The notes below the pieces were generated by a model. That model was not told the origin of the DNA. It searched no databases and was given only the letters and a program-made list of their open reading frames with translations. Position numbers and translations under genes: made by a program. DNA of 26,728 bases from positions 1 through 26,728 of the IMG/VR virus record IMGVR_UViG_3300037088_000923, one strand, 5' to 3'. This stretch comes from a virus. This document shows, piece after piece, positions 1-14,395 of the stretch; position 1 is the first letter of the stretch, and each line of letters begins with the position of its first letter.

Positions 1-204
1 AAGTTTTTCTTTTAGTTTGATGAATCCCTTTTTGTCTTCGGAGGCGGCGAGGAAATAAGTTCCATCTTCTTCTTTGATATAATCAAAGAGATGATAGTCG
101 TAGATTCTTTGCCCTGCAATTGTGTCGTGGATCTGATATCTTTCCGGGATTGGATTTCGAACTTCTGCAACGGGGATTTCATTGAGTCCTGTTGTTTTTG
201 TCAT
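1..204 (-). CDS. Hypothetical early protein (partial, runs off the window)
   Basis: The reading frame opens at an ATG at 202-204 (N-terminus MTKTTGLNEIPVAEV), stays open through base 1, and so lacks its C-terminus here. An AAGGAGG SD sits at 212-218 on the minus strand, which fixes the start. The visible 68 residues are hydrophilic with many aromatic and acidic residues, and show no signal peptide or membrane segment. It is the last gene of the leftward early operon in this window. I do not recognise a family. Confidence 0.7.
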   Translation of the reverse strand, partial: MTKTTGLNEIPVAEVRNPIPERYQIHDTIAGQRIYDYHLFDYIKEEDGTYFLAASEDKKGFIKLKEKL

Positions 205-216
205 GGTCTGGCCTCC

Positions 217-408
217 TTATCGTGGTGGTAAGTAATGAGTTTCGATACCGCACTTTTCCCGCCTGATAATTCTCCGGGCTTCCTTTTCAAGAACTTCAGA
301 AGCGTAGGTGGCAGGCAATATATTATTTCGCTTTGCCTCTCTTTGCAAGGCTTTTTTTGCATCCACAGAGATATATGATCCCTGCACAACTCGTTTAATC
401 CTTGGCAT
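217..408 (-). CDS. Small basic protein, possible ribbon-helix-helix DNA-binding protein
   Basis: This 63-residue protein begins MPRIKRVVQGSYISVDAKK. A short extended segment (about residues 8-15, SYISVDAK) is followed by two predicted helices (about 16-24 and 30-47), which is the size and order of a ribbon-helix-helix (CopG/Arc-like) repressor. AGGAGG precedes the ATG at 406-408. The gene overlaps the end of the upstream gene by 14 bases, so the two are probably translated together. The assignment is from shape and length only; a plain hypothetical protein remains possible. Confidence 0.65.
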   Translation of the reverse strand: MPRIKRVVQGSYISVDAKKALQREAKRNNILPATYASEVLEKEARRIIRREKCGIETHYLPPR

Positions 409-697
409 TATCTATTCCCTCCTGATCGTAGAATTTTTCCCACTTCTTTGACTCTCCTTTTTTGCAAGTTTTGTAATGGACGATGAGATCGGGATCATCG
501 TCGGCAAGGGCTCCACAATTGATGCATTCATAGACATCCAGATTATCTGTGTGATGAATGACTTCAAGCTCATTGCATTTTTCTTTATCAATCAAAGTTT
601 TTGTTTCTTGTTTGTGATCTTCCCATGTTCTTCTAAATTGCCAACCCAACCAAAAGGATATTCCGATAAGCAAAATCACTCCTATTGCCAATTCCAT
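395..697 (-). CDS. Membrane-anchored small protein with a zinc-finger-like C-terminal domain
   Basis: In this 100-residue protein, residues 2-18 (ELAIGVILLIGISFWLG) form one strong transmembrane segment. A charged, probably helical stretch follows, then a Cys/His cluster at about residues 57-78: CINCG, then a His and a Cys about 15-20 residues later (VHYKTC). This fits a C2H2/C2HC zinc site. The likely topology is a membrane anchor with a cytoplasmic zinc domain. The SD (AAGGAGG) overlaps the stop codon of the upstream 42-residue gene. No family recognised. Confidence 0.7.
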   Translation of the reverse strand: MELAIGVILLIGISFWLGWQFRRTWEDHKQETKTLIDKEKCNELEVIHHTDNLDVYECINCGALADDDPDLIVHYKTCKKGESKKWEKFYDQEGIDNAKD

Positions 698-708
698 AAT
701 TTACCTCC

Positions 709-837
709 TTATCCTTTTCCTTTATTAATTTTGAGCTTCATTTGATAGATGTCTTGTTTGCGGATTACTTTTCCTCCAGTTGCTTTAATCATAGCAAGAT
801 GCAAATGCCATGGGGCTTTGATCCATTCAGTTTTCAT
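709..837 (-). CDS. Hypothetical 42-residue protein
   Basis: This short frame runs from an ATG at 835-837 to a TAA at 709-711. Its N-terminus is MKTEWIKAPWHLHLAMI and it ends in a Lys/Gly-rich tail. GGGAGG lies 6-7 bases before the ATG, and its own stop is embedded in the SD of the next gene, the same tight packing as the rest of this operon. The protein is basic with an aromatic N-terminus. No family recognised. Confidence 0.6.
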   Translation of the reverse strand: MKTEWIKAPWHLHLAMIKATGGKVIRKQDIYQMKLKINKGKG

Positions 838-848
838 CTCTGCCTCCC

Positions 849-967
849 TCAGGTTATTTCCCAGCAGATTAAATCCTCATCGACGCGGACAAGTCTCAAC
901 TCTTCACCGTTTTTCTTTGGCTTGTTTTCTCTTGCCTCTTTTAGAGTCTCGTAGTTTTGCCCTTTTG
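849..967 (-). pseudogene. -1-frame continuation of the split small gene
   Basis: After the heptamer at 965-959 the -1 frame reads 36 further codons (QNYETLKEAR... ending LICWEIT) to a TGA at 849-851. The composition looks protein-like. The stop abuts the SD (GGGAGG) of the next gene, exactly as other stops in this operon do. The frame has no start codon or SD of its own, so it should be made only by frameshifting or by an intact version of the gene. It is labelled pseudogene only because the frame is broken in this sequence. Confidence 0.45.
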
Positions 968-1036
968 AAACCAGTTCTCGCCTTTAAGGACTTCCCAGTG
1001 ATAGCTTGTTTTGGTTAATTGGTAGATTCGTTTCAT
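941..1036 (-). CDS. Small early protein, 5' part of a gene split by a -1 frameshift
   Basis: The ATG at 1034-1036 overlaps the TGA of the preceding gene (ATGA), with GGAG upstream, so this start is well supported. Frame 0 gives 31 residues (begins MKRIYQLTKTSYHWEVLKG) and stops at 941. The minus strand reads A AAG GGC at 965-959, which has the X XXY YYZ form of a -1 slippery heptamer. Reading -1 from there gives an open continuation to 849 and a plausible 62-residue product. One missing base in the AAAAGGG run would give the same picture. Confidence 0.5.
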   Translation of the reverse strand: MKRIYQLTKTSYHWEVLKGENWFQKGKTTRL

Positions 1037-1461
1037 GATTCCAAAGTCTCCTTTACAAAGTTTTTGAGATTGCGATTCATCTTCATCATTAACTCGATGA
1101 CCTTCTCTACTCCGGCAGTGCATTTGAATTCCCACTGGATTGGATTGCCGAGAAAGTCTGTCTCTTCATTCATCATCTCTTTGGCCAATCCTCCCGGGCT
1201 GATTGTGTAAGTATACCAGTTGGCTGGATCGATGAATCTTGCCTGACCGATAGGAGTTATTTTTTGCAAGAAACTTGACCATCTCGCAATTGTTGGTTTC
1301 TTGTTGTTGATATAGGCGACAACTCCCGGGTAATCATCACAATGATAGCAATGATCGTATCGGAGCATATCGCCTATTGGTAGGGTTGCCGGATTGAGTT
1401 GATCTTCGACTTCATACATCTCGATCTTTTTCACTATGATTTTTGTTGACTTCTTTTTCAT
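1033..1461 (-). CDS. Hypothetical early protein, 142 aa
   Basis: Its N-terminus is Lys-rich (MKKKSTKIIVKKIEMYEVED). A Cys/His group at about residues 37-42 (DHCYHCDD) could bind a metal, but no second pair is evident. The centre is rich in aromatic and proline residues (about 70-95), and the C-terminal third is a likely amphipathic helix. The start overlaps the previous stop (ATGA at 1458-1461), and its stop overlaps the next start, so it is the middle of a translationally coupled trio. No family recognised. Confidence 0.7.
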   Translation of the reverse strand: MKKKSTKIIVKKIEMYEVEDQLNPATLPIGDMLRYDHCYHCDDYPGVVAYINNKKPTIARWSSFLQKITPIGQARFIDPANWYTYTISPGGLAKEMMNEETDFLGNPIQWEFKCTAGVEKVIELMMKMNRNLKNFVKETLES

Positions 1462-1682
1462 GATTTCTCTTCCTCCTTTATTTTATGTTTGTTGAGAAGG
1501 GCAAGAGCTGTGCCATGCAGTCCTCTTCCCTTCTTGTAATACATCTCAAACCTGCGGGAAATATATTCCGATTTGAGATGATAGGTATATCTCTTAATAT
1601 TGTCTGGCTCTTTAACGACAAATAGAGAGATATCAATCACGCCATCTGGATGTTTTACTGTTGCTTCATGAATCAAATGCAT
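1458..1682 (-). CDS. Hypothetical early protein, 74 aa
   Basis: This small protein begins MHLIHEATVKHPDGVIDISL. It has two probable beta strands, then a basic helical part (about residues 35-70) with YHLKSEYISRRFEMYYKKG near its centre. GGAGGG lies 10 bases upstream of the ATG at 1680-1682. Its stop overlaps the next start by four bases. The strand-strand-helix arrangement loosely recalls small phage domains such as KTSC, but I cannot support that assignment. Confidence 0.65.
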   Translation of the reverse strand: MHLIHEATVKHPDGVIDISLFVVKEPDNIKRYTYHLKSEYISRRFEMYYKKGRGLHGTALALLNKHKIKEEEKS

Positions 1683-1698
1683 TTGTCTTGCCCTCCTT

Positions 1699-1905
1699 TC
1701 AGGCTGACCCTTCTGTTCTCAGTGCTTCGGCAAGATCGCCCAGTTCGTTATATGCCTTGTCAAAAGCGCTTTCTACAAAGGGAATCTTTTCTTCTTTAAA
1801 AATAGGCTCCATTATTTTTCGGATTTCGTTTTTTGGGATGTAAAGTGTTTTCTTTTGATTGGCGATGTCAAGGACAAAATCTGTGTAGTCAATTAATGTT
1901 GGCAT
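1699..1905 (-). CDS. Hypothetical early protein, 68 aa
   Basis: This acidic, mostly helical small protein begins MPTLIDYTDFVLDIANQ. GGAG precedes the ATG at 1903-1905, and AACTTA lies just upstream of the SD (1922-1927), a motif shared with five other starts on this strand. It has no Cys, membrane segment or recognisable motif. It lies 21 bases downstream of the 133-residue gene and belongs to the same transcript. Confidence 0.65.
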   Translation of the reverse strand: MPTLIDYTDFVLDIANQKKTLYIPKNEIRKIMEPIFKEEKIPFVESAFDKAYNELGDLAEALRTEGSA

Positions 1906-1926
1906 GATTGTCTCCTTTCTCTAAGT

Positions 1927-2328
1927 TTAAAAATCGAGGGCTCTTTTTAGATGCCCTTCCTGTGGTTTCGGTTTGTCTGGTTTCTTTTGAGGTATAAAGG
2001 GAGGATATTCACCCGGTCTTAAATCCCTTCGTTTGTTTGCCATGTCTTGTAAAGTTCGGGAAGTTTTTCGGAGAGGCTTCCCATCCGATAATTTTCTTGC
2101 ATCATATCGTCTGCGATCTGTATCCAGAGACTCTTTAATAGTTTTATTTCCCAGTGAAGACAATCTTCTCTCTGCAGCTCTTGCCAATGCAGGGTATCCA
2201 AATACTTCAGCTGCTTTTATGAAGCTTCTGAGCTTATCTGTCTTTGTGATTTTGTTGAGACGGGTAAGAAGCTGTCCGGTAGTCATTTCTTGAAATCTTT
2301 TCCTTTCGTGATCCATCAGGTCTTTCAT
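1927..2328 (-). CDS. Basic early protein, first gene after the internal hammerhead ribozyme
   Basis: This 133-residue, strongly basic protein begins MKDLMDHERKRFQEMTTGQL. Its N-terminal half (1-60) is helical, and a Lys/Arg/Pro-rich tail covers about 75-125, suggesting nucleic-acid or protein binding. It ends in LKRALDF, a C-terminal motif nearly repeated in the gene at 9014-9214 and partly in the gene at 2425-3309. AGGAGG precedes the ATG at 2326-2328. The type II hammerhead at 2361-2418 lies in its 5' untranslated region, so its mRNA probably begins at 2388 after self-cleavage. Confidence 0.75.
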   Translation of the reverse strand: MKDLMDHERKRFQEMTTGQLLTRLNKITKTDKLRSFIKAAEVFGYPALARAAERRLSSLGNKTIKESLDTDRRRYDARKLSDGKPLRKTSRTLQDMANKRRDLRPGEYPPFIPQKKPDKPKPQEGHLKRALDF

Positions 2329-2360
2329 ATCTCCTCCTTTCTCTTCTCTAAGTTTTGTTT

Positions 2361-2418
2361 GATCTCATCAGTGCTGTCATTAACAGCAGACCCGGGCATT
2401 CTATCCCGGGTTTCGATC
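2361..2418 (-). ncRNA. Type II hammerhead ribozyme, internal (copy 1)
   Basis: Read on the minus strand 5' to 3': stem II strand GATC (2418-2415), core GAA plus A15.1 (2414-2411), stem III ACCCGGG/CCCGGGT with an 8-base loop (2411-2390), cleavage base C17 (2389) after GGGT, stem I TGCTGT/ACAGCA with loop TAATG (2388-2372), core CTGATGA (2371-2365), and stem II GATC (2364-2361). Every invariant hammerhead core base is present, with a GUC cleavage triplet. Predicted cleavage is between 2389 and 2388. The order (open stem II, closed stems I and III) makes it type II. It lies between the stop of the 294-residue gene (2425) and the ATG at 2328. No U-run follows the hairpins, so it is not a terminator. 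Confidence 0.92.
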
Positions 2419-2424
2419 TTTGAG

Positions 2425-3309
2425 TTAGAATTGGATATCTCTCTTGAGTGGTGTATCAATGTAAGTATTGATCTGCTCAAGGAGCTTCTCCGCTACTTTG
2501 GCGACCTTCGTCTTCGTCTTGTCATTTTGCAGGTCTGTATCAGAGATGCTTGCCACCTTCAAATTTACCTCGCCCAGAGTTTCCGTGAGGGCTTTGTCTC
2601 CGGAGATATTGAGAACCGGGAGCAACGAGATCAAATCGCGCAGGCCTGACATGACAGCCTTATCTTCTTGAAATCTCATTCTATCGGCGCTCAGGCGATC
2701 AACGATTGTCTTCACCGCCTCTGCCAATCTCTTCCAAAGATCCTTGGAGATATTGCCGTAACGATCAGAGATCGAGCCGACTAAGTTTTTCCTGACCTCT
2801 GCGAGAAGTTTTTTGTTTGCTTCGATTACAAAATGCCCGCTATTAGGAACCGGGAAGTAATCAATCTGGATCGACCACTTTGCCGCGAATTCGTCGAAGC
2901 TCAGATAATCATTTTCATCCCAGAGATCGCCCAGCGATGCCTTCGCCTTTACAAAGACCGCCTCTTGATACTTCGGTTTAAAGTCTATCAATTTGTCTTT
3001 CAATTCCTGAGAAAGCTCTTCATGGGTTTTGTTAAGTTTCTCCATGTTGGCGACGGGCAGCATCCGGACTCCTTTTGTCCATGGAACGGTCAGGGAATAA
3101 AACATCTTGAGCATTTTTCTTTGAGTATAATGGAGAGGTCCGGCATCTGTCAAGAGCTTCTTGATTACCCGGGCGCTGGTCTCATCGGCATGCTTTCTCG
3201 TTGTAAGTTCATCGGAAGCTTCTTTGTCATGTTTATTGACACCAAACTCTGTCATGGTAAGGTCAGCCAGTACCGCCACTTTTCCTAAATCTTGAATTTC
3301 TTCTTTCAT
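2425..3309 (-). CDS. Helical 294-aa early protein next to the Ycf46/Ycf35-like module (DUF3150-like?)
   Basis: This mid-sized, mostly alpha-helical protein begins MKEEIQDLGKVAVLADLTMT. It has heptad-like charged stretches around residues 90-130 and 180-230, and no Cys, membrane segment or catalytic motif that I can see. Size, helical character and position downstream of a phage AAA+ ATPase recall the DUF3150-type proteins that accompany such ATPases, but this is a weak resemblance. Its C-terminus, LKRDIQF, resembles the LKRALDF/LKRALEF ends of two other proteins here. AGGAG is upstream of the ATG at 3307-3309. The internal ribozyme begins 7 bases past its stop, so cleavage would leave its mRNA with a stem III hairpin near the 3' end. 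Confidence 0.75.
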   Translation of the reverse strand: MKEEIQDLGKVAVLADLTMTEFGVNKHDKEASDELTTRKHADETSARVIKKLLTDAGPLHYTQRKMLKMFYSLTVPWTKGVRMLPVANMEKLNKTHEELSQELKDKLIDFKPKYQEAVFVKAKASLGDLWDENDYLSFDEFAAKWSIQIDYFPVPNSGHFVIEANKKLLAEVRKNLVGSISDRYGNISKDLWKRLAEAVKTIVDRLSADRMRFQEDKAVMSGLRDLISLLPVLNISGDKALTETLGEVNLKVASISDTDLQNDKTKTKVAKVAEKLLEQINTYIDTPLKRDIQF

Positions 3310-3346
3310 GATTGTTCTCCTTTTTATATGAGTTGTAAGTTATTGG

Positions 3347-3547
3347 TTAGTGAGAATGTGCATGATCGTGATCGTGAGCCCCGTGATCGGCATCTGGATC
3401 CTCTTCAATAGTGACCTTGCCGCCCATAAGTTTATCCATCTTTGTGAGAAGCTCGTCAGCCGACATATGATTGCCGCTGCTGATCTCAGATGTCGTGACA
3501 ACGATCGTTCCGTCTTCCAATATTTTGAATGTGATGCTATCTGCCAT
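3347..3547 (-). CDS. DUF2997-like small protein with a His/Asp-rich metal-binding tail
   Basis: This 66-residue protein starts at the ATG at 3545-3547, chosen because AAGGAGG lies 8 bases upstream; a longer frame without an SD exists. Its N-terminus MADSITFKILEDGTIVVTTS forms a beta hairpin, followed by a helix around the M(S)ADELL segment, as in the short DUF2997 family commonly found beside DUF1257 (Ycf35) proteins. The tail from about residue 50 is nearly all Asp and His (DADHGAHDHDHAHSH), a likely divalent metal-binding extension. Family assignment rests on length, fold pattern and the neighbouring gene. Confidence 0.7.
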   Translation of the reverse strand: MADSITFKILEDGTIVVTTSEISSGNHMSADELLTKMDKLMGGKVTIEEDPDADHGAHDHDHAHSH

Positions 3548-3947: not shown

Positions 3948-5504
3948 TTACATATCAAGTTTGCGACCGGAAGATTTCTTTTCGGCGACGACCATTGCCT
4001 TTGATGCCGGGACTGTCCTGCCTTCCTTCCATTGAAGCAACCAATCGATATCTTCCTTCATAGTTTTGCTTATGGGAAGAATGAGCTGATCGGCGTCGTT
4101 GGCATCTTTGCCTTTTGAAATCTTCTTAGCTGCGAGCTTGCACCAAGTCTCAAGTTCTGCTCCCGACCACCCTTCTGTATCTACTTTCGGGCATGCCTTT
4201 GCAGGCAGACCGTAGACTTTTTTGTGATGATTGAGAATCGCTTCTCTCTCTGCGATGTTCGGCAGATTGACAAAGATCGGAGCTGTATCCCACCTGCCTG
4301 CCCGTAAGTATTCAGCGGGCAGAGAGGAGATATCGTTGCAGGTCGCGAAGACAATTATTCCCGGGATCCGATTGCTCAGAAATTTAAGGAGCAGTGAATT
4401 GCTTCTGTCTGTCGATCCGCTATCTCCACCACCTTGTCTTCCCATCTTTGATGTTCCGGCTAATCCTTTTTCCAGTTCATCGATGAAGACATAAATCGGA
4501 TTTAATGGATTTGCATTGGCTGTGATGACTGCGATTGATTTCGCATAGGCATTCTCTTTCTGCCCGACGAGACCTTCACCTTGCATCTGCGCCAATTCCC
4601 ACTCGATGCACATTGTATCGTAATGCGCGGCGAGCAGCTGAACGAATCTTGATTTGCCAGTCCCTGGAGGGCCGACAAAGATCATGCCCTTTGCATTTGG
4701 ATCATCTCTCCACTCATCGGCTAATTCTTTGGCAATCTCGAAGCCAATCAGATCAGTGAGCTTGCCTGTATACTTACCAATCTTTAATCCGGGTGTTGAG
4801 TTGATCTCTTCAGCCCTCAATTCCTCGACTGTCTTTGGATCAAAGTATCCAGCATTCTTGACGAGGCTGTAAGAGAAAACTTTGATGATCTCTGCGCTGC
4901 TCAGACCTTTCGCGCCGGCAATGATCCTCTGCTTATCTTTGGTATCTGGCTCTTTGAACTGTGGATTTCCCTTTGCCGAGTAAACAATAAACTGATAAAG
5001 GGTCTCGATCTCTTTTTCATCGGGCAGGTCGTAGCTGACCTTTGCAAATTCCCTCTTGAGAATAGACGGGATCGCTTTATCGAAGCTTTCCTCTCCGACG
5101 ATGATAAGTATCTTGCGATACTCGGGAGATGAAAACTTCGTCGATCTGTTTAGCAGCCATGCAACGGTCTCTTTATTTGACTTGCCGTATTGATCGACGA
5201 CAAACCAGTTATAGTTTTTTGCGATCACGATTTGCCCGGCTTCGATCTGGTCTCTCTCCTCTCTGATATTTTCGAGGAGGTTAATCATCTCTTTTGGATT
5301 GTTGTACTTGCTCTGCCCATTGTCTCCTGTCGACTCATAATCCCAAACGGCAACCCGATATTTCGTGCCGTTGGTGTTTGCCTTGAAATATTCTTCGAGG
5401 CTGTCTTTGACATCTTGGACTGTCTTGTTTGGTTCTTGAGTCTCAATGTAAAAATAAGCATATCCGCTCTTGATACCGAATATCAATTCTGATGTTCCTT
5501 TCAT
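3948..5504 (-). CDS. Ycf46-like AAA+ ATPase
   Basis: This 518-residue protein has an N-terminal domain (about 1-240, starting MKGTSELIFGIKSGYAYFYI) with the Ycf46-type 'SGYxxxYIET' opening, and one AAA+ module. Walker A is GPPGTGKS (278-285), Walker B YVFIDELEK (338-346), sensor 1 FATCND (386-391), a candidate arginine finger lies in LRAGRWD (400-406), and sensor 2 is WSGAELE (446-452). All catalytic positions look intact, so it should hydrolyse ATP, probably as a ring. The substrate is unknown; neighbours suggest it works with the DUF1257- and DUF2997-like proteins. GGGAG is upstream of the ATG at 5502-5504. It is the largest gene of the early operon. Confidence 0.88.
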   Translation of the reverse strand: MKGTSELIFGIKSGYAYFYIETQEPNKTVQDVKDSLEEYFKANTNGTKYRVAVWDYESTGDNGQSKYNNPKEMINLLENIREERDQIEAGQIVIAKNYNWFVVDQYGKSNKETVAWLLNRSTKFSSPEYRKILIIVGEESFDKAIPSILKREFAKVSYDLPDEKEIETLYQFIVYSAKGNPQFKEPDTKDKQRIIAGAKGLSSAEIIKVFSYSLVKNAGYFDPKTVEELRAEEINSTPGLKIGKYTGKLTDLIGFEIAKELADEWRDDPNAKGMIFVGPPGTGKSRFVQLLAAHYDTMCIEWELAQMQGEGLVGQKENAYAKSIAVITANANPLNPIYVFIDELEKGLAGTSKMGRQGGGDSGSTDRSNSLLLKFLSNRIPGIIVFATCNDISSLPAEYLRAGRWDTAPIFVNLPNIAEREAILNHHKKVYGLPAKACPKVDTEGWSGAELETWCKLAAKKISKGKDANDADQLILPISKTMKEDIDWLLQWKEGRTVPASKAMVVAEKKSSGRKLDM

Positions 5505-6004: not shown

Positions 6005-6229
6005 TTATGCTCCGATTGTTAAGTAATAACCGGCGGCTGTTACTCTGATTTTGCCGTTTGGCTTGTTGATAAATAATGGACATGATCCGGTAAAATGGAT
6101 GATTGCCTCTGCAATCAGGTCCAGATTCTCTTTTGAAGAAATTGTTGAGTTTATCCGGTTTTTCCAGTTCTTTTTATTGCTGACTTTGTTAAACGCTTCT
6201 TTCAATTGTTCCTGAGAATATTTTTTCAT
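6005..6229 (-). CDS. First gene of the leftward early operon, 74-aa hypothetical protein
   Basis: The ATG at 6227-6229 is preferred, with GGAGG 9 bases upstream; a TTG further out would overlap that SD. The product begins MKKYSQEQLKEAFNKVSNKK: a basic helical N-terminal half, then a hydrophobic part with one Cys (FTGSCPLF) and a C-terminal strand (VTAAGYYLTIG). The protein could bind DNA, but no family is recognised. It lies 25 bases downstream of the leader hammerhead ribozyme, so translation would start on an RNA whose 5' end was made by self-cleavage at 6282. Confidence 0.7.
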   Translation of the reverse strand: MKKYSQEQLKEAFNKVSNKKNWKNRINSTISSKENLDLIAEAIIHFTGSCPLFINKPNGKIRVTAAGYYLTIGA

Positions 6230-6254
6230 GATCTTTTCCTCCAAAATTTATTTT

Positions 6255-6308
6255 GATCTCATCAGTGCTGTCATTAACAGCAGACCCGGATTTAACCGGG
6301 TTTCGATC
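6255..6308 (-). ncRNA. Type II hammerhead ribozyme, operon leader (copy 2)
   Basis: On the minus strand: stem II GATC (6308-6305), GAA plus A15.1 (6304-6301), stem III ACCCGG/CCGGGT with loop TTAAAT (6301-6284), C17 at 6283, stem I TGCTGT/ACAGCA with loop TAATG (6282-6266), core CTGATGA (6265-6259), and stem II GATC (6258-6255). Stem II can extend beyond a small internal loop through TTATT pairing with AATAA (about 6311-6315 with 6248-6252), the usual partner for loop I tertiary contacts. Stem III differs from copy 1 by one whole base pair and by its loop, while core, stem I and loop I are identical. Predicted cleavage is between 6283 and 6282. Confidence 0.93.
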
Positions 6309-6344
6309 TAATAACCTCATGGGAGATTTCCAGTCATCCCTCAG

Positions 6345-6382
6345 ATCAAGACTTGATGTTGCCCTGCCAACCTTCTGGCAGG
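6345..6382 (-). promoter_or_regulatory. Structured leader hairpins upstream of the ribozyme
   Basis: Within the leftward leader, CCTGCCA (6363-6369) pairs with TGGCAGG (6376-6382) in a 7-bp stem with a 6-base loop. Beside it, ATCAAG-A-CTTGAT (6345-6357) is a perfect dyad. Further upstream, GGCG/CGCC can form a short stem (about 6384-6398). No U-run follows any of them on the minus strand. They lie between the predicted start of transcription and the ribozyme, so they would be part of the 5' piece released by cleavage. The dyad could instead be a protein operator. Confidence 0.4.
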
Positions 6383-6455
6383 ATCGGCGTTGGATCGCCT
6401 CTCTCTGATTATGTGCATGTTGTTTTTTTCTTGATCCCTCTGTCTTGTTGACCTA

Positions 6456-6484
6456 AATATATGATATTGAGATGTTCATGTCAA
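6456..6484 (-). promoter_or_regulatory. Leftward early promoter, sigma70-type
   Basis: On the minus strand TTGACA (6484-6479, perfect -35) is followed by exactly 17 bases and TATATT (6461-6456, 5 of 6 to TATAAT). Transcription should start near 6449, giving a leader of about 220 bases that contains the hairpins and hammerhead ahead of the ATG at 6229. A host-type consensus promoter fits an early phage operon read by host RNA polymerase. Confidence 0.8.
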
Positions 6485-7266: not shown

Positions 7267-7667
7267 AATATATCGTAGAGAAGAGGAGAGATAAGGATTT
7301 ATGGTTGGTGATTCCTTTTCAAGAAATGGCTGAAGGAGATATTGTCAGATTCCGTTTCCCCGACACCCTTGAATTAGTTTCTCTCCTTGATGAAACGATA
7401 TTTAGAGTGGCTTCTAAACCGGAACCATTCAGCGATCCAAATAATCCAGATGTGGAATGGATGGTCGAGATTGATGTCGGGAATCTTACTGTCTTGCAAT
7501 CAAATGACAGGATCGTAGATCCGAGAGATGTCCCCGAAAATTATGTTTATTTTGGGACTGCGGCAATCCCAGCCTTTAAAGGAGGAAGGGAATACGACGA
7601 AGAAGAGATTTCAGAACCTGTCAATCGTTTCAGAGAATCAATAATAAAAGGAGAACCCAGGCAATGA
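7263..7667 (+). CDS. Hypothetical acidic protein, 134 aa
   Basis: It starts within the stop of the small terminase (ATGA) and overlaps the next gene in the same way, so three genes are translationally coupled. It begins MKYIVEKRRDKDLWLVIPFQ. The centre is beta-rich and the surface strongly acidic (for example PFSDPNNPDVEWMVEID). It has no membrane segment, Cys or catalytic motif. Position beside the terminase suggests a packaging-associated or accessory role, but that is only inference. Confidence 0.7.
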   Translation: MKYIVEKRRDKDLWLVIPFQEMAEGDIVRFRFPDTLELVSLLDETIFRVASKPEPFSDPNNPDVEWMVEIDVGNLTVLQSNDRIVDPRDVPENYVYFGTAAIPAFKGGREYDEEEISEPVNRFRESIIKGEPRQ

Positions 7668-8206
7668 AAATCCAGATAATAAAAGAATTGGCGGAGAAGG
7701 TGGAGAGGATTGATACTCTTATTGGAAGGAGGCAGTCTCTTCAGAAGGGGGTAAAAGAGATAGGATTGGCAGGATTTAAAAGAGATAGTATTGAATGCGT
7801 GATGGTTCCGGCTGAAATATTTATGAGTGTCACAAAAGAAATCCTCTACTATTATGATAGAGAGATAGAGAGACAGAAAAAAGAGATCGAGGATTATCAC
7901 GAAAAGCCTATCACTTATGGAAGACTTAGAGCAGAAGAAGGAGGGTCTCCTCGTCATTGGGATCCGGGTAAGCCTCCTCAGTTTCTTGCTGGGGTTGATC
8001 GCGGCCAGGAAAGGGATCAGGTAGTTGTTGCTCTTTGGGGAAGTGATCCTGCCGGGAATTTTAAATTACTCAGAATGAAGACAACGGTTTATTTTTCGCA
8101 GGATCGCCCTTCAAGCAGAGAGATAGAAGAGCAAATCAGGGAAATGTGTATGGCAGAAAGTTTGTCAACAAAAGAAACAGAAGATGTACTCAGATCCTTG
8201 AGGTAG
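7664..8206 (+). CDS. Hypothetical protein with a coiled-coil N-terminal half, 180 aa
   Basis: It is coupled to the upstream gene by ATGA. Residues 1-85 are helical with charged heptads (MKIQIIKELAEKVERIDTLI; DREIERQKKEIEDYHEK). A Gly/Pro-rich linker follows (SPRHWDPGKPPQF), then a short beta segment (FLAGVDRGQERDQVVVALWG) and a helical C-terminus. The segment VDRGQERDQVVVALWG superficially resembles an RNase H-like strand, but no matching acidic residues follow. No family recognised. Confidence 0.65.
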   Translation: MKIQIIKELAEKVERIDTLIGRRQSLQKGVKEIGLAGFKRDSIECVMVPAEIFMSVTKEILYYYDREIERQKKEIEDYHEKPITYGRLRAEEGGSPRHWDPGKPPQFLAGVDRGQERDQVVVALWGSDPAGNFKLLRMKTTVYFSQDRPSSREIEEQIREMCMAESLSTKETEDVLRSLR

Positions 8207-8209
8207 GAA

Positions 8210-8401
8210 ATGAAAAAGCAACAATTGACAATCGCAGAACTTGAAGCCCTTCTCGATCAGGATGAAGAGACGGCAATTGTTCTCTCTGCCGGAAAAGTTG
8301 ATGATTATATCCGCTGCGATATAAAAATTACCAACGAAGAATTATGGGAAAGAGCAATGATGCAAGGAAGGCCATTACAAGTGAGGGTGGGGTATAAATG
8401 A
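8210..8401 (+). CDS. Hypothetical protein, 63 aa
   Basis: This small acidic protein begins MKKQQLTIAELEALLDQDEE: one helix followed by beta strands (TAIVLSAGKVDDYIRCDIKI). It lies three bases after the previous stop, with GAGGTAGG as a weak SD inside that gene's end, and overlaps the methyltransferase start by four bases. No family recognised. Confidence 0.6.
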   Translation: MKKQQLTIAELEALLDQDEETAIVLSAGKVDDYIRCDIKITNEELWERAMMQGRPLQVRVGYK

Positions 8402-9024
8402 ACTCTCAAGAGATAGAAAAGATATATAGAGACGAACCAAGATTCCAGAGAGTCTTCCAGCTCAAGCATGTCCAGAAATACTCGACATATGCAGTCGCCT
8501 CAATTATAAACTGGCTGGTCGAAAAGATGAATCCGCAATATTGTTATCTTGATGTTGGTGTGTGGCATGGTTTCTCCCTCCTCGCCGGTGCAATAGGCAA
8601 TCCTCAAAAGCGTTGCATCGGCGTTGATAATTTCTCCCAGACTGACGGGATCGATGATCTGGAGCGTAATATCGAGCCATTCGAGAATGTCGAATTCTTC
8701 AAGATGGGGTATCAAAAATATCTTCAGCAGATTCACAAACAATCAATAGGGGTGTATCATTATGACGCAGACCACAGAGAGGATAGCCAGTATTATGGGC
8801 TTACCCTTGCAAAACGCTTCCTTCGAGAAGGCTCAATTATTATTATTGACGATTGGTCTTGGCTCCATGTCCAGACTGCGACGAGATGGTTCCTTAAAGA
8901 CAATCCCGAATATCATATCATCTTTGAAGAGACCTATAACAAGCCGATAGAGGAATGTAATCTCTGGAATGGAATCTGCCTAATCAAAAAAGGCAAAGAA
9001 GGAAGGGCATATTATGGGTATTAG
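8398..9024 (+). CDS. Class I SAM-dependent methyltransferase-like protein (Methyltransf_24 type)
   Basis: This 208-residue protein has a Rossmann-like methyltransferase core: motif I LDVGVWHG (51-58), second-strand acidic motif GVDNFS (75-80), DADHRED at 123-129, and the strand/acid pair IIIIDDW (147-153). This pattern matches class I enzymes of the Methyltransf_24 group, which often act on small molecules or glycans in surface-sugar pathways. An invariant 'GxGxG' is degenerate (GVWHG), as is common in that group. The target cannot be read from sequence; virion glycan or host-surface modification are options. Confidence 0.75.
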   Translation: MNSQEIEKIYRDEPRFQRVFQLKHVQKYSTYAVASIINWLVEKMNPQYCYLDVGVWHGFSLLAGAIGNPQKRCIGVDNFSQTDGIDDLERNIEPFENVEFFKMGYQKYLQQIHKQSIGVYHYDADHREDSQYYGLTLAKRFLREGSIIIIDDWSWLHVQTATRWFLKDNPEYHIIFEETYNKPIEECNLWNGICLIKKGKEGRAYYGY

Positions 9025-9214
9025 TCCGCAATATACATGGGGCGAGTTTGTCGAATATTTTAAGAAAGATGACTTGGTGCAATTTTTTACTCAGCCTCAG
9101 CCTGGAGGGAATGTTTTCCTTTATAGATCAAAGGATCCATCAGTTCCGATGGAGATTCAAGAGAAGCAGCCTGAGGAAAAGAATATTGTGTTGAAAAGAG
9201 CTTTGGAGTTTTAA
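9014..9214 (+). CDS. Hypothetical protein with C-terminal LKRALEF tag, 66 aa
   Basis: It overlaps the methyltransferase end by 11 bases, with GGAAGG upstream of the ATG. It begins MGISPQYTWGEFVEYFKKDD, continues with FLYRSKDPSVPMEI, and has a charged linker before the C-terminal LKRALEF. This end is nearly identical to that of the early protein at 1927-2328, although the two proteins are otherwise unrelated. The N-terminus could be a small helical domain. No family recognised. Confidence 0.6.
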   Translation: MGISPQYTWGEFVEYFKKDDLVQFFTQPQPGGNVFLYRSKDPSVPMEIQEKQPEEKNIVLKRALEF

Positions 9215-9216
9215 TT

Positions 9217-9393
9217 ATGCAAGAATGGCAACAAGGGCATGATCGATTTACAAAGGCAAAACAAAAGCAGCTTGCCGCCAATAGGGAAAGGCTTATAAGG
9301 GAAAGGATCGGCAGGAAGTGCTCAAAGGTCGCTAACGACAACTATCTAAATCATTATGACGAGACATTCGGGAAGAAGGAGGAGAGATCATGA
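9217..9393 (+). CDS. Basic helical small protein, 58 aa
   Basis: The frame runs from the ATG at 9217 to a TGA overlapping the next start (ATGA at 9390-9393). The product begins MQEWQQGHDRFTKAKQKQLA and is very rich in Lys, Arg and Gln, consistent with one long amphipathic or nucleic-acid-binding helix. There is no clear SD beyond GGAG inside the upstream gene, so translation is probably coupled. No family recognised. Confidence 0.55.
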   Translation: MQEWQQGHDRFTKAKQKQLAANRERLIRERIGRKCSKVANDNYLNHYDETFGKKEERS

Positions 9394-9812
9394 AGAAAAG
9401 ATTTGGGACAATGTTGTGGATAATTTTGATTTGCCTTTTGGTTTCATATGGGATTGTTCATGCCGGCGCTCTGACTTCGATGAAAGCGGTCAAGGCTGTC
9501 CCAGATGGAGCGCAAGTATTTCTTGATGGATATGTCTCTCCGGGATTTGTTGATGCGGAAGTCCTGACAGGCGGAGCAGCGGTAGTTCATTATGTTCCAT
9601 ATCAGGGAACGACGACTCTTGTAAAAATAAAATGTACTGGCGATGTCTGGGTGAATGTGGGAGCAGCCGCCGCTGTCCCCGGAGCTGCCATAACAGATGG
9701 CTCCAGTTCAATATTGAATCCACCCGGCTTCTTATCTATCGGATCGGCGACATATATAGGATTGATCGCAGCGGCGAATAATAAGTGTTCTCTTGAGTGG
9801 TTCAAGCCATAG
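9390..9812 (+). CDS. Secreted protein with signal peptide, beta-rich
   Basis: This 140-residue protein has an unmistakable Sec signal peptide: MKKRF, hydrophobic core about 8-22 (MLWIILICLLVSYGI), and probable cleavage after VHA (residue 25). The mature part (about 115 residues) is beta-rich, Ala/Gly-rich and poor in charge (DVWVNVGAAAAVPG), with two Cys (in KIKCTGD and NKCSLEW) that could form a disulfide in the periplasm. The mature domain resembles short beta-sandwich virion decoration proteins, yet the signal peptide would send it out of the cytoplasm. AAGGAGGAG is a strong SD. Confidence 0.72.
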   Translation: MKKRFGTMLWIILICLLVSYGIVHAGALTSMKAVKAVPDGAQVFLDGYVSPGFVDAEVLTGGAAVVHYVPYQGTTTLVKIKCTGDVWVNVGAAAAVPGAAITDGSSSILNPPGFLSIGSATYIGLIAAANNKCSLEWFKP

Positions 9813-9968
9813 ATGAAAATCATATATGTCTATACTGACCAGACATATTGCAAGAAGACAGGCGAGCCCTGTAAAGAGCCAGATAAACCTTGTCCTCATA
9901 AAGTGAGGAAGGAAGATATGGAGAGAGAAGATGAAGGGAGAGGATTTGCACGGAGGCGAGATACTTAG
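9813..9968 (+). CDS. Cys-rich 51-aa protein, probable zinc-binding
   Basis: It starts directly after the previous stop (TAGATG). The product begins MKIIYVYTDQTYCKKTGEPC and contains C-X6-C-X6-C-P-H at residues 13-29, in which a CKxxGEP-like unit is nearly repeated. This is a compact CCCH metal-site pattern. The C-terminus is charged and overlaps the start of the tail-collar gene by 38 bases in another frame. Coding is supported by the Cys pattern and gapless placement, but the SD is weak. Confidence 0.5.
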   Translation: MKIIYVYTDQTYCKKTGEPCKEPDKPCPHKVRKEDMEREDEGRGFARRRDT

Positions 9969-10107
9969 TAAGGAGGAATATCCGGAGTTGTATGCAGCCA
10001 TCTGTTCTTCATATAGGTTTGTTCCAGAAAAATTTACTCTGCCGGATTTGAGAGGCAGATTTATGAGAGGATGGACTGAAGACTTTTCAGATGGAGGAGG
10101 AATATAA
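9931..10107 (+). CDS. Stand-alone phage tail collar domain (PF07484-like), 58 aa
   Basis: The ATG at 9931 opens a 58-residue frame whose centre matches the tail collar domain: the ILSKEEYPELYAAICSSY helix followed by FTLPDLRGRFMRGW, the LPDLRGRF signature. In most phages this domain ends a long fibre protein. Here it is a complete small gene, slightly shorter than usual and lacking the upstream fibre. It could be a separately made fibre tip or chaperone, or a remnant of a fibre replaced elsewhere. The SD is purine-rich (GAGAGAGAAG). Confidence 0.65.
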   Translation: MKGEDLHGGEILSKEEYPELYAAICSSYRFVPEKFTLPDLRGRFMRGWTEDFSDGGGI

Positions 10108-10108
10108 A

Positions 10109-10609
10109 ATGTCAAGATCACAGACAGGAAATAGAAATGCCTTCTTAGACATGATTGCAGATTCGGAATTAGGCCAGAGGATACTCGCCGGATCTGATGA
10201 TGGATATAATGTCGAGGTCGGCAGTACCCCGGATAACATTATCCTGATCGCGAACTACGACGATCATCCCCATATTGTTGAGCATATTCATCGCAGAGAC
10301 GGGACGGATATTCCCTCAAGTGCTGCCGGGCGTTATCAGGCGCTTGGACATATTTTCGATTCTTATCGGAAGAGCCTCAATCTGCAAGCTCCTTATTTTT
10401 CTCCTGAAAATCAAGATGCAGTCACAATCCAGCAAATAAGAGAATGTCATGCACTGCCGGATATCGATGCAGGCAATATCGAATCTGCTATTCCAAAGGT
10501 CGCGCATCTCTGGGCAAGTTTCCCGGGTGCAGGATATAAAGATCAGCACATGAATAAGATCACTCAACTACTCGCAGCATTTACAGCTGCTGGTGGAATA
10601 TTGGCATAG
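10109..10609 (+). CDS. Endolysin, lambda R-type lytic transglycosylase
   Basis: It cuts the glycan strands of peptidoglycan at the end of infection. The ATG at 10109 is preferred because GGAGGAGG lies 8 bases upstream; a start at 10091 adds six residues without an SD. Of 166 residues, NRNAFLDMIADSE (8-20) carries the catalytic Glu at 20, aligning with the E19 region of lambda R. AAGRYQ (72-77), QDAVTIQQI (102-110) and WASFPGAGY (135-143) match conserved R motifs, and length is close to lambda's 158. There is no signal peptide, so release needs a holin. It opens the lysis block. Confidence 0.9.
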   Translation: MSRSQTGNRNAFLDMIADSELGQRILAGSDDGYNVEVGSTPDNIILIANYDDHPHIVEHIHRRDGTDIPSSAAGRYQALGHIFDSYRKSLNLQAPYFSPENQDAVTIQQIRECHALPDIDAGNIESAIPKVAHLWASFPGAGYKDQHMNKITQLLAAFTAAGGILA

Positions 10610-10621
10610 GGAGGTGAATAT

Positions 10622-10810
10622 ATGGTAACATTGAAGGTCATCATTGCAATTGTGATTGTTCTTTTGATTCTCGCCGTTGTTGGAGTTTTTGTCTATCGAA
10701 ATAACAAGGCGAAGATTCTCGCAGCAGCCGACAAGGCGACAGCAGTAGCAGACAAGGTGGTTGATGCAGAACAGAAAGCAAAAGATATTGCGGCGACATT
10801 AAAGAAGTAA
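10622..10810 (+). CDS. Single-pass membrane protein, possible lysis accessory
   Basis: This 62-residue protein has one strong transmembrane helix at about 5-26 (KVIIAIVIVLLILAVVGVFV), then an Ala/Lys/Asp-rich amphipathic helix (ADKATAVADKVVDAEQKAKD) likely in the cytoplasm or periplasm. GGGAGGTG is upstream of the ATG. It sits directly after the endolysin. This layout suits a class III holin-like or accessory membrane protein, but a better holin candidate lies at 11453-11725. The structured RNA and terminator follow 36 bases later. Confidence 0.65.
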   Translation: MVTLKVIIAIVIVLLILAVVGVFVYRNNKAKILAAADKATAVADKVVDAEQKAKDIAATLKK

Positions 10811-10846
10811 CGGCGCAAAGAAAAGTGATGACAAGCTAACGAAAAA

Positions 10847-10919
10847 GGAGAGGGTGTGAAACAAACTAAACTATCGTCCGCAACGAGGGTTAGGTCACGA
10901 CATTCCCTCTCCATTTTTT
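10847..10919 (+). ncRNA. Structured RNA capped by an intrinsic terminator
   Basis: The longest non-coding gap of the right arm (10811-10933) contains nested pairings: GGAGAGGG (10847-10854) with CCCTCTCC (10905-10912), GTGA (10856-10859) with TCAC (10895-10898), CTAA (10866-10869) with TTAG (10890-10893), and TCGT (10874-10877) with ACGA (10883-10886) closing a 5-base loop. TTTTTT follows the outer stem (10914-10919), so it should terminate transcription. GAGGG at 10885-10889 can compete for CCCTC, offering a switch between two folds. Four nested helices are more than a plain terminator needs. No known riboswitch core is recognised. Confidence 0.6.
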
Positions 10920-10933
10920 AAAAAGGAATTATC

Positions 10934-11122
10934 ATGACAACAGCAAATACAATGTCAATAGGCGATATCCAGCAGGCATTAAATGAGTTCAATAATAAAG
11001 ACCTTGCAGTTTATGTATCGATTGCCGGTGTCGCATATTCGATTTCATCGATAGGATTAAATCCGGTGCTGGGGCAAGATGTCCAGATAGTTATCTATTG
11101 TCAACCAATGGCAATTTCATAA
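10934..11122 (+). CDS. Hypothetical protein, 62 aa
   Basis: It begins MTTANTMSIGDIQQALNEFN: an N-terminal helix, then a beta-rich, uncharged C-terminal half (DLAVYVSIAGVAYSISSIG) ending QIVIYCQPMAIS. It looks like a small globular alpha/beta domain. AAAGGA is upstream. It is the first gene after the terminator, so either some transcription reads through or a new promoter lies nearby. No family recognised. Confidence 0.6.
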   Translation: MTTANTMSIGDIQQALNEFNNKDLAVYVSIAGVAYSISSIGLNPVLGQDVQIVIYCQPMAIS

Positions 11123-11135
11123 AAGGAGGTCAGAG

Positions 11136-11456
11136 ATGCCAAGTCCAGATGAGAATAAAAAGGTCAATGAAGGGTTTTTTAGAATGCTCAATTCGGAGCC
11201 GAGGAATGGTGCGGGCGCCTTCTTGAATAATTATGAGGAGAGAATGAATGTTCAAATCGGCAGTCCTTTCCTCAAAGTTCTTCAGGAAGAAAAGGTGGAG
11301 GAAGATACATATTACAATCTTGTTTGCAGAATTGACAAACTTGAAAAGAAGATCAATAAAATAATGATCCATCTGGGCATCGATGACAAATCAGAAATTT
11401 TGGTTGTTGGAAAGGCAATGATAAATCCATATAAGATGAAAGGAGGTCAGTCATGA
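11136..11456 (+). CDS. Hypothetical protein with C-terminal coiled coil, 106 aa
   Basis: It begins MPSPDENKKVNEGFFRMLNS. Residues about 55-82 form a likely coiled coil (YNLVCRIDKLEKKINKIMIH), suggesting oligomerisation. The last codons (MKGGQS) double as the SD of the next gene, and the stop overlaps its start. AAAGGAGGTC precedes its own ATG. No family recognised. Position between lysis genes does not establish a lysis role. Confidence 0.6.
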   Translation: MPSPDENKKVNEGFFRMLNSEPRNGAGAFLNNYEERMNVQIGSPFLKVLQEEKVEEDTYYNLVCRIDKLEKKINKIMIHLGIDDKSEILVVGKAMINPYKMKGGQS

Positions 11457-11725
11457 AATTTAGCGAGCAAGCAAAGGTCTGGTTGAAAGGATTTATCTCT
11501 GCGGTCATCTCAGGGTTGTCAGGTGGGGTAGGATGTTTAATCGCAGAGCCTACTACCTTTAATTTTACGGAGACCGGATTTATATCGCTGGCAAAGGTTT
11601 GCGGAGTGTCTGCATTGATAGGAGCTGCCAATTATATAAAGCAGTCGCCATTGCCATCCAGTAATTGTGGGCCTCCGCCTGCAATGCCTGATCCGGCGGC
11701 AGCTCCCGGGACACCGACAAAATGA
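11453..11725 (+). CDS. Holin-like membrane protein
   Basis: Holins make the inner-membrane holes that release the endolysin. This 90-residue protein starts with a short amphipathic helix (MKFSEQAKVWLKGF) and has two hydrophobic segments at about 13-32 (ISAVISGLSGGVGCLIAEP) and 43-62 (ISLAKVCGVSALIGAANYIK). It then carries KQSPLP and a Pro-rich tail. The 'KxWLKG...FIGG...NF...YLKQSPLP' layout recurs in small phage holin candidates near spanins. AGGAGG is upstream of the ATG. Position between endolysin and spanins supports the call; biochemical identity is inferred. Confidence 0.62.
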   Translation: MKFSEQAKVWLKGFISAVISGLSGGVGCLIAEPTTFNFTETGFISLAKVCGVSALIGAANYIKQSPLPSSNCGPPPAMPDPAAAPGTPTK

Positions 11726-11749
11726 CGATAAAGGGAAAGGAGACCAGTC

Positions 11750-12031
11750 ATGAAAAAGGATGAAATAATGTTAACGGCCTTTGCAGATAAATTGATGGCC
11801 AAATTTATGGAGTTGAATCCGGACGACAAGCCGATATCATGGTGTATAAAACTTATTAGCAACGATCAGGAATATAAGAATGCTGCATTGATGAGTCTTT
11901 CAAATGATGTTAGTCTTCTTTGTCTTCCTGAGAAGATCCACGATGTCATAACAAACGAAGCTGTCTTTGATTTCTTTGAAATGGAAGATAGTTGGTATTT
12001 ATTCGCTCTCGTACAGAGCAAATTTGCATAA
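11750..12031 (+). CDS. Hypothetical helical protein, 93 aa
   Basis: It begins MKKDEIMLTAFADKLMAKFM and is mostly helical and acidic, with a conserved-looking centre LPEKIHDVITNEAVFDFFEM. It has two separated Cys and no membrane segment. GGAGA precedes the ATG. It lies between the holin candidate and the inner spanin. No family recognised. Confidence 0.6.
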   Translation: MKKDEIMLTAFADKLMAKFMELNPDDKPISWCIKLISNDQEYKNAALMSLSNDVSLLCLPEKIHDVITNEAVFDFFEMEDSWYLFALVQSKFA

Positions 12032-12042
12032 GGAGAATAATC

Positions 12043-12522
12043 ATGTTAGGACTACCGCCTTATCTAAATCCGAAAAACATATTGCTGACTCTTCTGGGCA
12101 TCGCACTGATCTCAACCGGATTCCTCTATCTTACCCAGAGGACGACCCTCGCGACAACGAAGGCCAATCTCGAAAGTTGCCAGAAAGACCTTTCTATCGA
12201 GAAGATTGATCTTGCCGATTGTGAAAAGAATGTCGCAGCTGTGAAGACCCAGTACGAGCAGGCAGAGCAGACCAATGCCAATACAAATACCGTGAGAGAT
12301 AAAATATGGACGATTGTTAATAAACATACAGTCACGGCGCCCGGGCCTGCCCAAACAAATCCTCAAATAGTAACCGCTGCCCCTGCAGCCCAGCCAAAGG
12401 AGATGGTGATCGACAATGAAACACAGAAAAAACTTGATGATCTGTTTGCTGTTGCCAATAGTACTGTCGTTGCTTTTAATACAAGGGTGCGCGCATCGGC
12501 AGGAGTTGGTGGTTCCAAATGA
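12043..12522 (+). CDS. Inner-membrane spanin (Rz-like)
   Basis: The ATG at 12043 is preferred (AAGGAG 9 bases upstream); a longer frame starting inside the previous gene lacks an SD. The 159-residue product has an N-terminal signal-anchor at about 13-30 (ILLTLLGIALISTGFLYL), a periplasmic coiled coil at about 38-80 (KANLESCQKDLSIEKIDL), a Pro/Ala linker, and a second helix (ETQKKLDDLFAVANSTVV). This fits an i-spanin, which with the outer-membrane lipoprotein fuses the two membranes in lysis. The call rests mainly on the overlapping lipoprotein gene. Confidence 0.78.
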   Translation: MLGLPPYLNPKNILLTLLGIALISTGFLYLTQRTTLATTKANLESCQKDLSIEKIDLADCEKNVAAVKTQYEQAEQTNANTNTVRDKIWTIVNKHTVTAPGPAQTNPQIVTAAPAAQPKEMVIDNETQKKLDDLFAVANSTVVAFNTRVRASAGVGGSK

Positions 12523-14035: not shown

Positions 14036-14395
14036 ATGCCAACAATTCAATTGAGTGATGCAAATGGAGTTAAATATTATTTTCAATGTACTCAGGGAGA
14101 TGGATCTTTAGCCAACCCATTCATCCCAGATAGTGAAGATACTAATCTTGAATTTATGCTTCATATTCTGCTTGATCTGCTTTCAAACCCTGTCTGGTTA
14201 AATGCAGCTTTGAATGCTCTTCAAGTTTCTCAGGCGACAGCTGCAAACTTGAACTGCACGGCTTCAATCGCCGGCGCTCAAACCCTTGCGACCTTAACAA
14301 ACGTGGCTCAACATGGAGCAGTTCCTGCGGATCCTCTTGTCCCCGGGATGATGGATGCCGCGTGGGGATCAGATATCAGAGCGATTTTGACATAG
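14036..14395 (+). CDS. Hypothetical structural-region protein, 119 aa
   Basis: The ATG at 14036 is chosen with GGAGG just upstream, inside the terminase end. It begins MPTIQLSDANGVKYYFQCTQ: an N-terminal beta segment, a helical centre (FMLHILLDLLSNPVWLNAAL), then an Ala/Thr-rich stretch and a C-terminal DAAWGSDIRAILT. Low charge and high Ala/Thr content are typical of virion proteins. Position between terminase and the 543-residue structural protein supports this, but no family is recognised. Confidence 0.65.
   Translation: MPTIQLSDANGVKYYFQCTQGDGSLANPFIPDSEDTNLEFMLHILLDLLSNPVWLNAALNALQVSQATAANLNCTASIAGAQTLATLTNVAQHGAVPADPLVPGMMDAAWGSDIRAILT

Follow-up and report, generated by a model that had tools for sequence, protein, structure and literature searches.

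Predicted type II hammerhead ribozymes in a phage operon and between the genes of viral relatives

The question raised by the minus strand of IMG/VR virus record IMGVR_UViG_3300037088_000923 is what a self-cleaving RNA would do in the operon of a phage. The whole stretch of DNA analysed, positions 1 to 26,728 of the record (26,728 nucleotides), is called the window below. The role of natural hammerheads in prokaryotes and phages was termed an open question in a 2017 review (PMC6155905). The first-pass annotation of the window had described a complete type II hammerhead on 6308-6255 (-), and had taken it for a device of one leader, that of an early operon. A second hammerhead, at 2418-2361 (-), was absent from that annotation.

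The two hammerhead copies

The features of the two copies are as follows.

6255..6308, minus strand: hammerhead copy 1, type II (stem II GATC/GATC, GAAA, stem III hairpin, GTC, stem I hairpin, CTGATGA)
6308-6305, minus strand: copy 1 GATC, 5' strand of stem II
6304-6301, minus strand: copy 1 GAAA
6284..6301, minus strand: copy 1 stem III hairpin (CCCGG/CCGGG plus A6301-T6284), which would end the upstream RNA after the cut
6277..6282, minus strand: 5' strand of copy 1 stem I, with which the downstream RNA would begin once cut
6265-6259, minus strand: copy 1 CTGATGA
6258-6255, minus strand: copy 1 GATC, 3' strand of stem II
2361..2418, minus strand: hammerhead copy 2, type II, situated after ORF 2425-3309 and before ORF 1927-2328, with the predicted cut at 2389|2388

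Read directly from the minus strand, copy 1 consists of GATC, GAAA, CCCGG-TTAAAT-CCGGG, TC, TGCTGT-TAATG-ACAGCA, CTGATGA and GATC. In its stem I (TGCTGT/ACAGCA), 6282-6277 are paired with 6271-6266 around the loop TAATG at 6276-6272, and residue H17 is C6283, which places the predicted cut at 6283|6282. When the core definition of PMC3088659 was used, the core (C3 U4 G5 A6 N7 G8 A9, G12 A13 A14, A15.1-U16.1 and H17) was complete in the sequence of both copies, and in both of them stems I and III are closed and stem II is open, which is the type II architecture. The copies share an identical stem II strand, GAAA and CCCGG, and their identity resumes at CCGGG and holds across stem I, the core and the other stem II strand; stem III of copy 2 has a loop unlike that of copy 1 and one extra G-C pair. 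Copy 2 starts 6 nt past the stop of ORF 2425-3309, and copy 1 is positioned in the leader, not between long ORFs.

Searches with the Rfam hammerhead II family, RF02276, gave a divided answer to the expectation of the first-pass annotation that this model would recognize the element: in a 301-base scan against 4227 families copy 1 was matched at 6247-6308 (-) with E=7.7e-4, and its 27.9 bits are below the gathering cut-off of 37 bits. When RF02276 was searched alone in the 26.7 kb record, copy 1 was found at 6247-6308 (-) (27.9 bits, E=1.6e-5) and copy 2 at 2353-2418 (-) (30.4 bits, E=3.7e-6), both below the same cut-off. This cut-off is a curation threshold and no defining property of a hammerhead, and the copies are filed here as type II hammerheads, not as curated members of RF02276. 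No hammerhead match was obtained in a whole-window Rfam scan at E<=10, and a match to Atu_L1 overlapping the hammerhead (22.4 bits vs 60) was set aside as chance. The search of control genomes with RF02276 gave some match in 10 of 14 at a loose limit of 10, and none above the cut-off.

When the window was scanned generically for hammerheads of all three types (I, II and III), the two type II motifs were the sole matches; 3 of 100 shuffled windows had a match. A narrower pattern had two matches in the window and none in 100 shuffles. The generic scan revealed no third hammerhead, whether in the window or elsewhere in a near-identical 83 kb record, nor did a later covariance model (R1, described below) in the same DNA, save one weak match at E=0.33. 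Since both copies belong to the training set of R1, its E-values for them are not independent.

As an isolated 54-mer, copy 1 has the hammerhead as its minimum-energy fold (z -3.6; 2 of 200 shuffles equally good), and in general the isolated 54- and 66-nt stretches of the copies fold as three-helix hammerheads and the longer flanked ones do not. When copy 1 was folded with flanks, other folds beat the hammerhead: with 20 nt on either side the hammerhead fold had -19.7 kcal/mol vs -25.1 kcal/mol for the best alternative (a gap of 5.4), and the probability of the first stem II pair was 0.54. For copy 2 with 20-nt flanks the corresponding energies were -22.6 and -24.3 kcal/mol, and the probability was 0.24. 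The lower-energy alternative pairing of copy 1 with its flanks implies that cotranscriptional folding and tertiary contacts would matter.

The operon and the phage genome

The operon features on which the following description relies are these.

6456..6484, minus strand: sigma-70-like promoter TTGACA-17-TATATT (11/12 positions, a consensus match only)
6283..6449, minus strand: inferred leader, which copy 1 would free, about 167 nt if transcription starts near 6449
6005..6229, minus strand: first operon gene, 74 aa, with an SD-like GGAGG upstream
3948..5504, minus strand: AAA ATPase gene, between the two hammerheads
2425..3309, minus strand: last gene ahead of copy 2, 294 aa
1927..2328, minus strand: gene directly after copy 2, 133 aa, with its start codon 60 nt past the predicted cut

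The consensus promoter that the first-pass annotation had placed upstream is there as a match (6484-6456, 11 of 12 positions), although such sites are not enriched over shuffles (6 in the window vs a shuffle mean of 4.5). The structured leader of roughly 165 bases, by comparison, was not borne out: its folding is not unusual (z -1.7), and 13 of 200 shuffles fold as well. The leader contains a 25-codon ORF at 6418-6341. For the 74-aa first gene no Pfam match was found at E<=0.01.

If both cuts occurred, the predicted 5' UTRs of the downstream products would be 53 nt (copy 1) and 60 nt (copy 2). Both products keep stem I, and their centroid folds leave the SD-like GGAGG open; the minimum-energy fold of the copy 1 product (frequency 0.04) pairs part of GGAGG.

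The 83 kb record is IMGVR_UViG_3300036886_000363 (83,436 bases), to which the window is near-identical (2 differences over 13,504 shared bases, neither in a hammerhead), and it contains both hammerhead copies. Genes for terminase, portal and head proteins are on the plus strand, and the hammerhead operon runs opposite to them. The minus-strand genes of the 83 kb record extend over tens of kilobases and include those for DNA polymerase III alpha, GTP cyclohydrolase I, QueC and a PTPS protein; a DnaB-like protein on the same strand gave a weak match, below the Pfam cut-off. The early operon of the first-pass annotation is accordingly plausible, as it is opposite to the head genes and continues into DNA polymerase III alpha and, weakly, the DnaB-like protein; the label 'early/replication operon' is one that we reasonably infer.

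No independent close relative was found, and the 83 kb record is the only near-identical one. Neither the leader nor copy 2 had a meaningful relative when phages were searched by BLAST, and scans of viral-contig proteins for close relatives of the AAA ATPase, the first gene and the 294-aa gene had the 83 kb record as their sole match. When the retrieved viral loci (see below) were searched by tblastn, homologues of the 294-aa protein at 23-28% identity appeared in L008, L113 and L127, and distant homologues of the small and large terminase, the portal and one further plus-strand protein appeared in others. A conserved position relative to the 294-aa gene was rejected: the L127 homologue comes after the hammerhead, whereas the window gene precedes copy 2.

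Several side observations concern the same genome. In the 83 kb record (L258), GTP cyclohydrolase I, QueC, a radical SAM protein and a PTPS protein are grouped at 7520-12435 (-), a gene set that we take to suggest 7-deazaguanine modification of the phage DNA. The radical SAM protein (9940-11499, minus strand), presumably QueE-like by its neighbourhood, has a HINT-domain match at residues 56-156 and possibly contains an intein. DNA polymerase III alpha of the same record (95-3457, minus strand) is fused with a uracil-DNA glycosylase superfamily domain at residues 966-1103. On the plus strand of the window, three otherwise unlike operon proteins start alike by eye (MLLYDFLKGLPGSRYLKTRDA, MLLYDFLKGLKGSKYLKTRDA and MLLSDFLSKGVKNGMYAKT, encoded at 17870-17940, 19110-19180 and 24674-24740), perhaps as a shared targeting tag. 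The portal protein at 19683-22454 (+) has 923 aa, with a long extra C-terminal part that matches phrog_23460 at 741-894. A CRISPR-DR36-like match at 14261-14292 (-) scored 28 bits vs a gathering score of 38 and may be chance.

Fold and placement in viral relatives

Relatives were retrieved from viral contigs by patterns. The first pattern, which consisted of stem I, the loop and the core only, gave 14 stretches, two of them from the 83 kb record; L012 and L013, among those 14, are not hammerheads. The second pattern, GAAAC-N{6,36}-GTC-N6-TRATG-N6-CTGANGA, gave at least 120 stretches; it fixes the loop TRATG and, via GAAAC and GTC, the first two pairs of stem III, and contains no stem II. Among the 153 viral matches listed, 8 rows repeat the window or its 83 kb record, and in 3 further rows a single hammerhead was read twice from different GAAAC sites. 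Before any selection, stem I had 6/6 pairs in 131 of these 153 matches and 0-3 pairs in the other 22, with nothing between. A strict rule without an extra base was passed by 94 of the 153 matches listed; when one extra base after CTGANGA was allowed, 113 unique viral sequences with stems I and II, including the window copies, were obtained among the matches listed. Since this set was kept at stem I >=5/6 and stem II >=3 pairs, its pairing is partly selected there, while stem III was unselected.

Within the 113 sequences from the matches listed, an A just 5' of stem II, which is outside the pattern, was present in 113 of 113, as was the inner C-G pair of stem II, and stem II occurred in 18 sequence combinations. 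Pairs 3-5 of stem III, neither fixed nor filtered, were paired in 112, 110 and 110 of the 113 (shuffle maxima of 64, 66 and 64), and pair 6 in 86. An alignment of 60 of the 113 (A2) had 98.4% of its helix cells paired vs 63.8% after shuffling, and its covariation score, to which all three helices contribute, was 0.838 vs 0.181 for shuffled alignments and at most 0.100 when slid. Doubly changed pairs (13, with 12.3 in shuffles) and pair types (41, with 39.4) were not in excess of shuffles; the other three measures were. With 20-nt flanks, the 113 sequences had a median fold gap of 4.8 kcal/mol, and only 40 were within 3. The core read from the sequence, the RF02276 match and the covariation in this family together uphold the complete type II hammerhead on 6308-6255 (-), and the sequence and covariation likewise uphold its predicted cut with stem I exactly at the new 5' end.

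A pattern scan of genome contigs was mostly chance (28 of the 121 matches listed fully paired) and was excluded from the viral statistics. As a separate observation, a similar hammerhead with a 10-pair stem III was seen in bacterial records including several Gastranaerophilales MAGs (L146, L149, L162, L169, L183, L190, L198 and others), where it stands just before, or close to, an ORF beginning ATGGATTACAAGCCTTGGATG.

The covariance model R1, built from the relatives, gave 144 matches in 88 chosen loci. These were the loci numbered up to L113 that had a paired match, together with L012 and L013; the model was not run on L114-L137 or on several duplicates. After L034, L071 and L072 were dropped as duplicates and the window was added, the final set comprised 141 matches in 86 sources. 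An ATG-ORF of at least 40 codons began within 60 nt downstream of 119 of the 141 model matches (932 of 2820 random places), and an upstream ORF stopped within 12 nt, counted from 3 nt inside stem II, in 114 of 141 (155 of 2820); some of the loci are close kin, so that these counts are not all independent. Both an upstream stop and a downstream ATG-ORF within 60 nt were found for 103 of the 141 matches vs 237 of 2820 random places. With so many matches between ORFs, and with the second copy inside the operon of the window, the description as a device of one leader proved too narrow.

The opposite strand served as a control for the 113 sequences among the matches listed: within 60 nt, an ATG was found for 96 vs 21 and a stop for 99 vs 42. 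By a crude ORF test, 32 of the 113 relatives listed were inside some open frame of at least 60 codons, vs 1532 of 2260 random places. Two or more hammerheads occurred in 32 of 84 loci, in none of them on both strands, and 25 of 54 consecutive hammerhead pairs within 2 kb enclosed exactly one ORF. L011 and L032 contain gene-hammerhead-gene-hammerhead strings, and one 52.7 kb record has eight hammerheads within 3.5 kb, of which the two weakest score 26-29 bits. The window, with two copies on the minus strand, fits this clustering of phage hammerheads on one strand.

The same set has features of its own. Loop I was TGATG or TAATG in 96 of 138 parsed matches, and 28 of the remaining 42 were also U-N-A-N-G, in a count for which 3 of the 141 aligned matches were unparsable and the loop variety comes from a model trained on TRATG sequences. 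The A 5' of stem II was present in 134 of 134 measurable model matches, and stem II nearly always had 4 pairs. The cut-off of RF02276 was reached by one of 24 model matches in 15 related loci. The published type II consensus includes a pseudoknot of loop I with a 3' tail, described for the majority of type II and not for all (PMC3088659). Such a pseudoknot was not detected here: complementary runs of at least 3 occurred in 35 of the 113 listed relatives, and shuffled tails gave a mean of 28.1 and a maximum of 37. For types I and III a reverse Hoogsteen loop contact has been reported (PMC6155905), and the invariant A and the U-N-A-N-G loop suggest, as judged from sequence conservation, a non-canonical contact between stems I and II like that of types I and III. 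As an additional observation, an extra base between CUGANGA and stem II (T in the rows shown) was present in 36 of 138 parsed model matches, for example in L011:1367-1434 (-) and L033:1853-1920 (+), a recurrent insertion in an otherwise consensus core.

Proposed cutting of the operon message

The sequence of the elements, the conservation of their fold in relatives, their position and the recurrence of the same arrangement in many phages are established by these comparisons. From them we consider it probable that both copies, as predicted type II hammerheads, are processing signals, intercistronic and in the leader, on one long phage transcript; we infer the co-transcription of the genes, the cleavage and its use, which may be to free, insulate or stabilise messages. 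During transcription each copy would cleave the RNA at the junction of stems III and I. Because the type II permutation places the cut between two closed hairpins, stem III would end the upstream product, with a 2',3'-cyclic phosphate, and stem I would begin the downstream product, with a 5'-hydroxyl, 53 or 60 nt ahead of the next start codon. The ribosome-binding site would stay on the downstream message. The products would be a detached leader, a message of about 3.9 kb with about seven ORFs, and the remainder of the operon, with a hairpin at every cut end and with no need for a host nuclease. The message may be shielded from decay that depends on the 5' end, but in hosts with RNase J a 5'-hydroxyl end can also bring decay about, and in which direction cutting acts on the message would depend on the host.

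The element and the cutting idea are already known, and this phage operon is a further case. Perreault et al. described clusters of type II hammerheads in prophages in 2011 (PMC3088659); in that study three tandem prophage sets cleaved in vitro, one of them also in E. coli, 4 of 18 consensus hammerheads tested were inactive in vitro, and the splitting of long phage RNAs into operon- or gene-length mRNAs was already proposed. As they are described there and in RF02276, the prophage and bacterial type II elements are permuted in the same way (GAAA - stem III - UH - stem I - CUGANGA) and leave stem II open, and several copies likewise flank genes in phage DNA; compared with that published description, the present set has an almost invariable 4-pair stem II, an invariant 5' A and mostly a U-N-A-N-G loop I. 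The HHphage of haloviruses HF1/HF2 likewise stands shortly ahead of the first gene of an early polycistronic unit, 13 nt before the early helicase gene, with a mapped mRNA 5' end at most 3 nt from the cut (PMC3088659). It has core insertions near C3 and belongs to viruses of halophilic archaea, whereas the window copies have a consensus core. RiboJ, a hammerhead followed by a hairpin and placed before a gene, raised transcript abundance about twofold in E. coli (PMC6206723); it is an engineered form of the sTRSV ribozyme and has an additional 23-nt hairpin, separate from the ribozyme, whereas in the window copies stem I itself would be the terminal hairpin. Self-cleavage in an mRNA leader that leaves a 5'-hydroxyl message, as predicted for copy 1, is found in the glmS ribozyme of B. 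subtilis; as a point of difference, the glmS cleavage leads to decay. It is ligand-dependent, and its fold is unrelated to the hammerhead.

The fate of glmS suggests another reading, which we regard as unlikely: cleavage may lower expression, the 5'-hydroxyl product being an entry for a 5' exonuclease, and may thus limit or time the early message. In B. subtilis RNase J1 indeed degrades the glmS mRNA once it has cleaved itself (PMC3997798, PMC11780869), but the new 5' end in the window would open directly with a six-pair hairpin, and 5' hairpins can stabilise mRNAs (PMC3997798). In addition, the elements of some phages precede several different genes per cluster, which general processing fits better than the control of one gene. 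The role would, with very low probability, be carried by the released pieces, with copy 1 freeing a leader RNA that acts by itself. The 11/12 promoter match would set the start about 167 nt upstream of the cut and the leader can fold, but it does so no better than usual, and what lies upstream of copy 2 and of most relatives is a gene.

We give equally little weight to the copies being inactive relics or chance look-alikes. Their preference for alternative folds when flanked and the generic hammerhead shapes in the shuffled windows are compatible with this, but there are two copies with core and stems intact, the narrow pattern is absent from the shuffles, and covariation in the relatives is strong. 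Similarity is higher within than between loci (stem I 0.66 vs 0.43, stem II 0.92 vs 0.68, inner stem III 0.57 vs 0.36, from 12 vs 6316 pairs), as would be expected of a repeated linker that was spread by copying and whose main use is in homologous exchange between gene cassettes. This explanation is very improbable, as pairing is kept while the sequence changes across phages, which points to the RNA fold, rather than DNA identity, as what is selected, and as the hammerheads have a strand bias relative to the genes. Finally, two cuts on the same strand would yield a fragment with a 5'-hydroxyl and a cyclic phosphate, ends of the kind that RtcB joins, and the intervening 3.9 kb could then become a circular or spliced RNA. 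We find this hardly credible: neither an RtcB nor an RNA_ligase family match was obtained in the 83 kb record, although the host could supply such an enzyme, the arrays, with as many as eight cut sites, suit segmentation better than ligation, and no such ligation products were detected for the tandem hammerheads of 2011 (PMC3088659).

Processing of the operon message thus remains our preferred reading. A broader proposal, which we hold tentatively and at somewhat less than an even chance, is that a compact, pseudoknot-free, mostly sub-cut-off subclass of type II, with a 4-pair stem II, the invariant 5' A and a U-N-A-N-G loop I, is a general punctuation mark of many phages, placed up to once per gene between stop and start, which would turn polycistronic transcripts into hairpin-ended messages independently of host nucleases. 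This subclass is possibly distinct, and Dataset S1 of Perreault et al. may already list it; what is added here, as far as the literature searched is concerned, is this operon, the quantified stop-hammerhead-start placement and the longer arrays. As the subclass looks under-called at the Rfam threshold (one in 24 in the 15 loci), its extent in the virome may be underestimated. With the stop-hammerhead-start layout, the one-strand arrays and the two-copy operon, one answer to the question of what hammerheads do in phages, namely that they split polycistronic RNA into separate messages, becomes directly testable.
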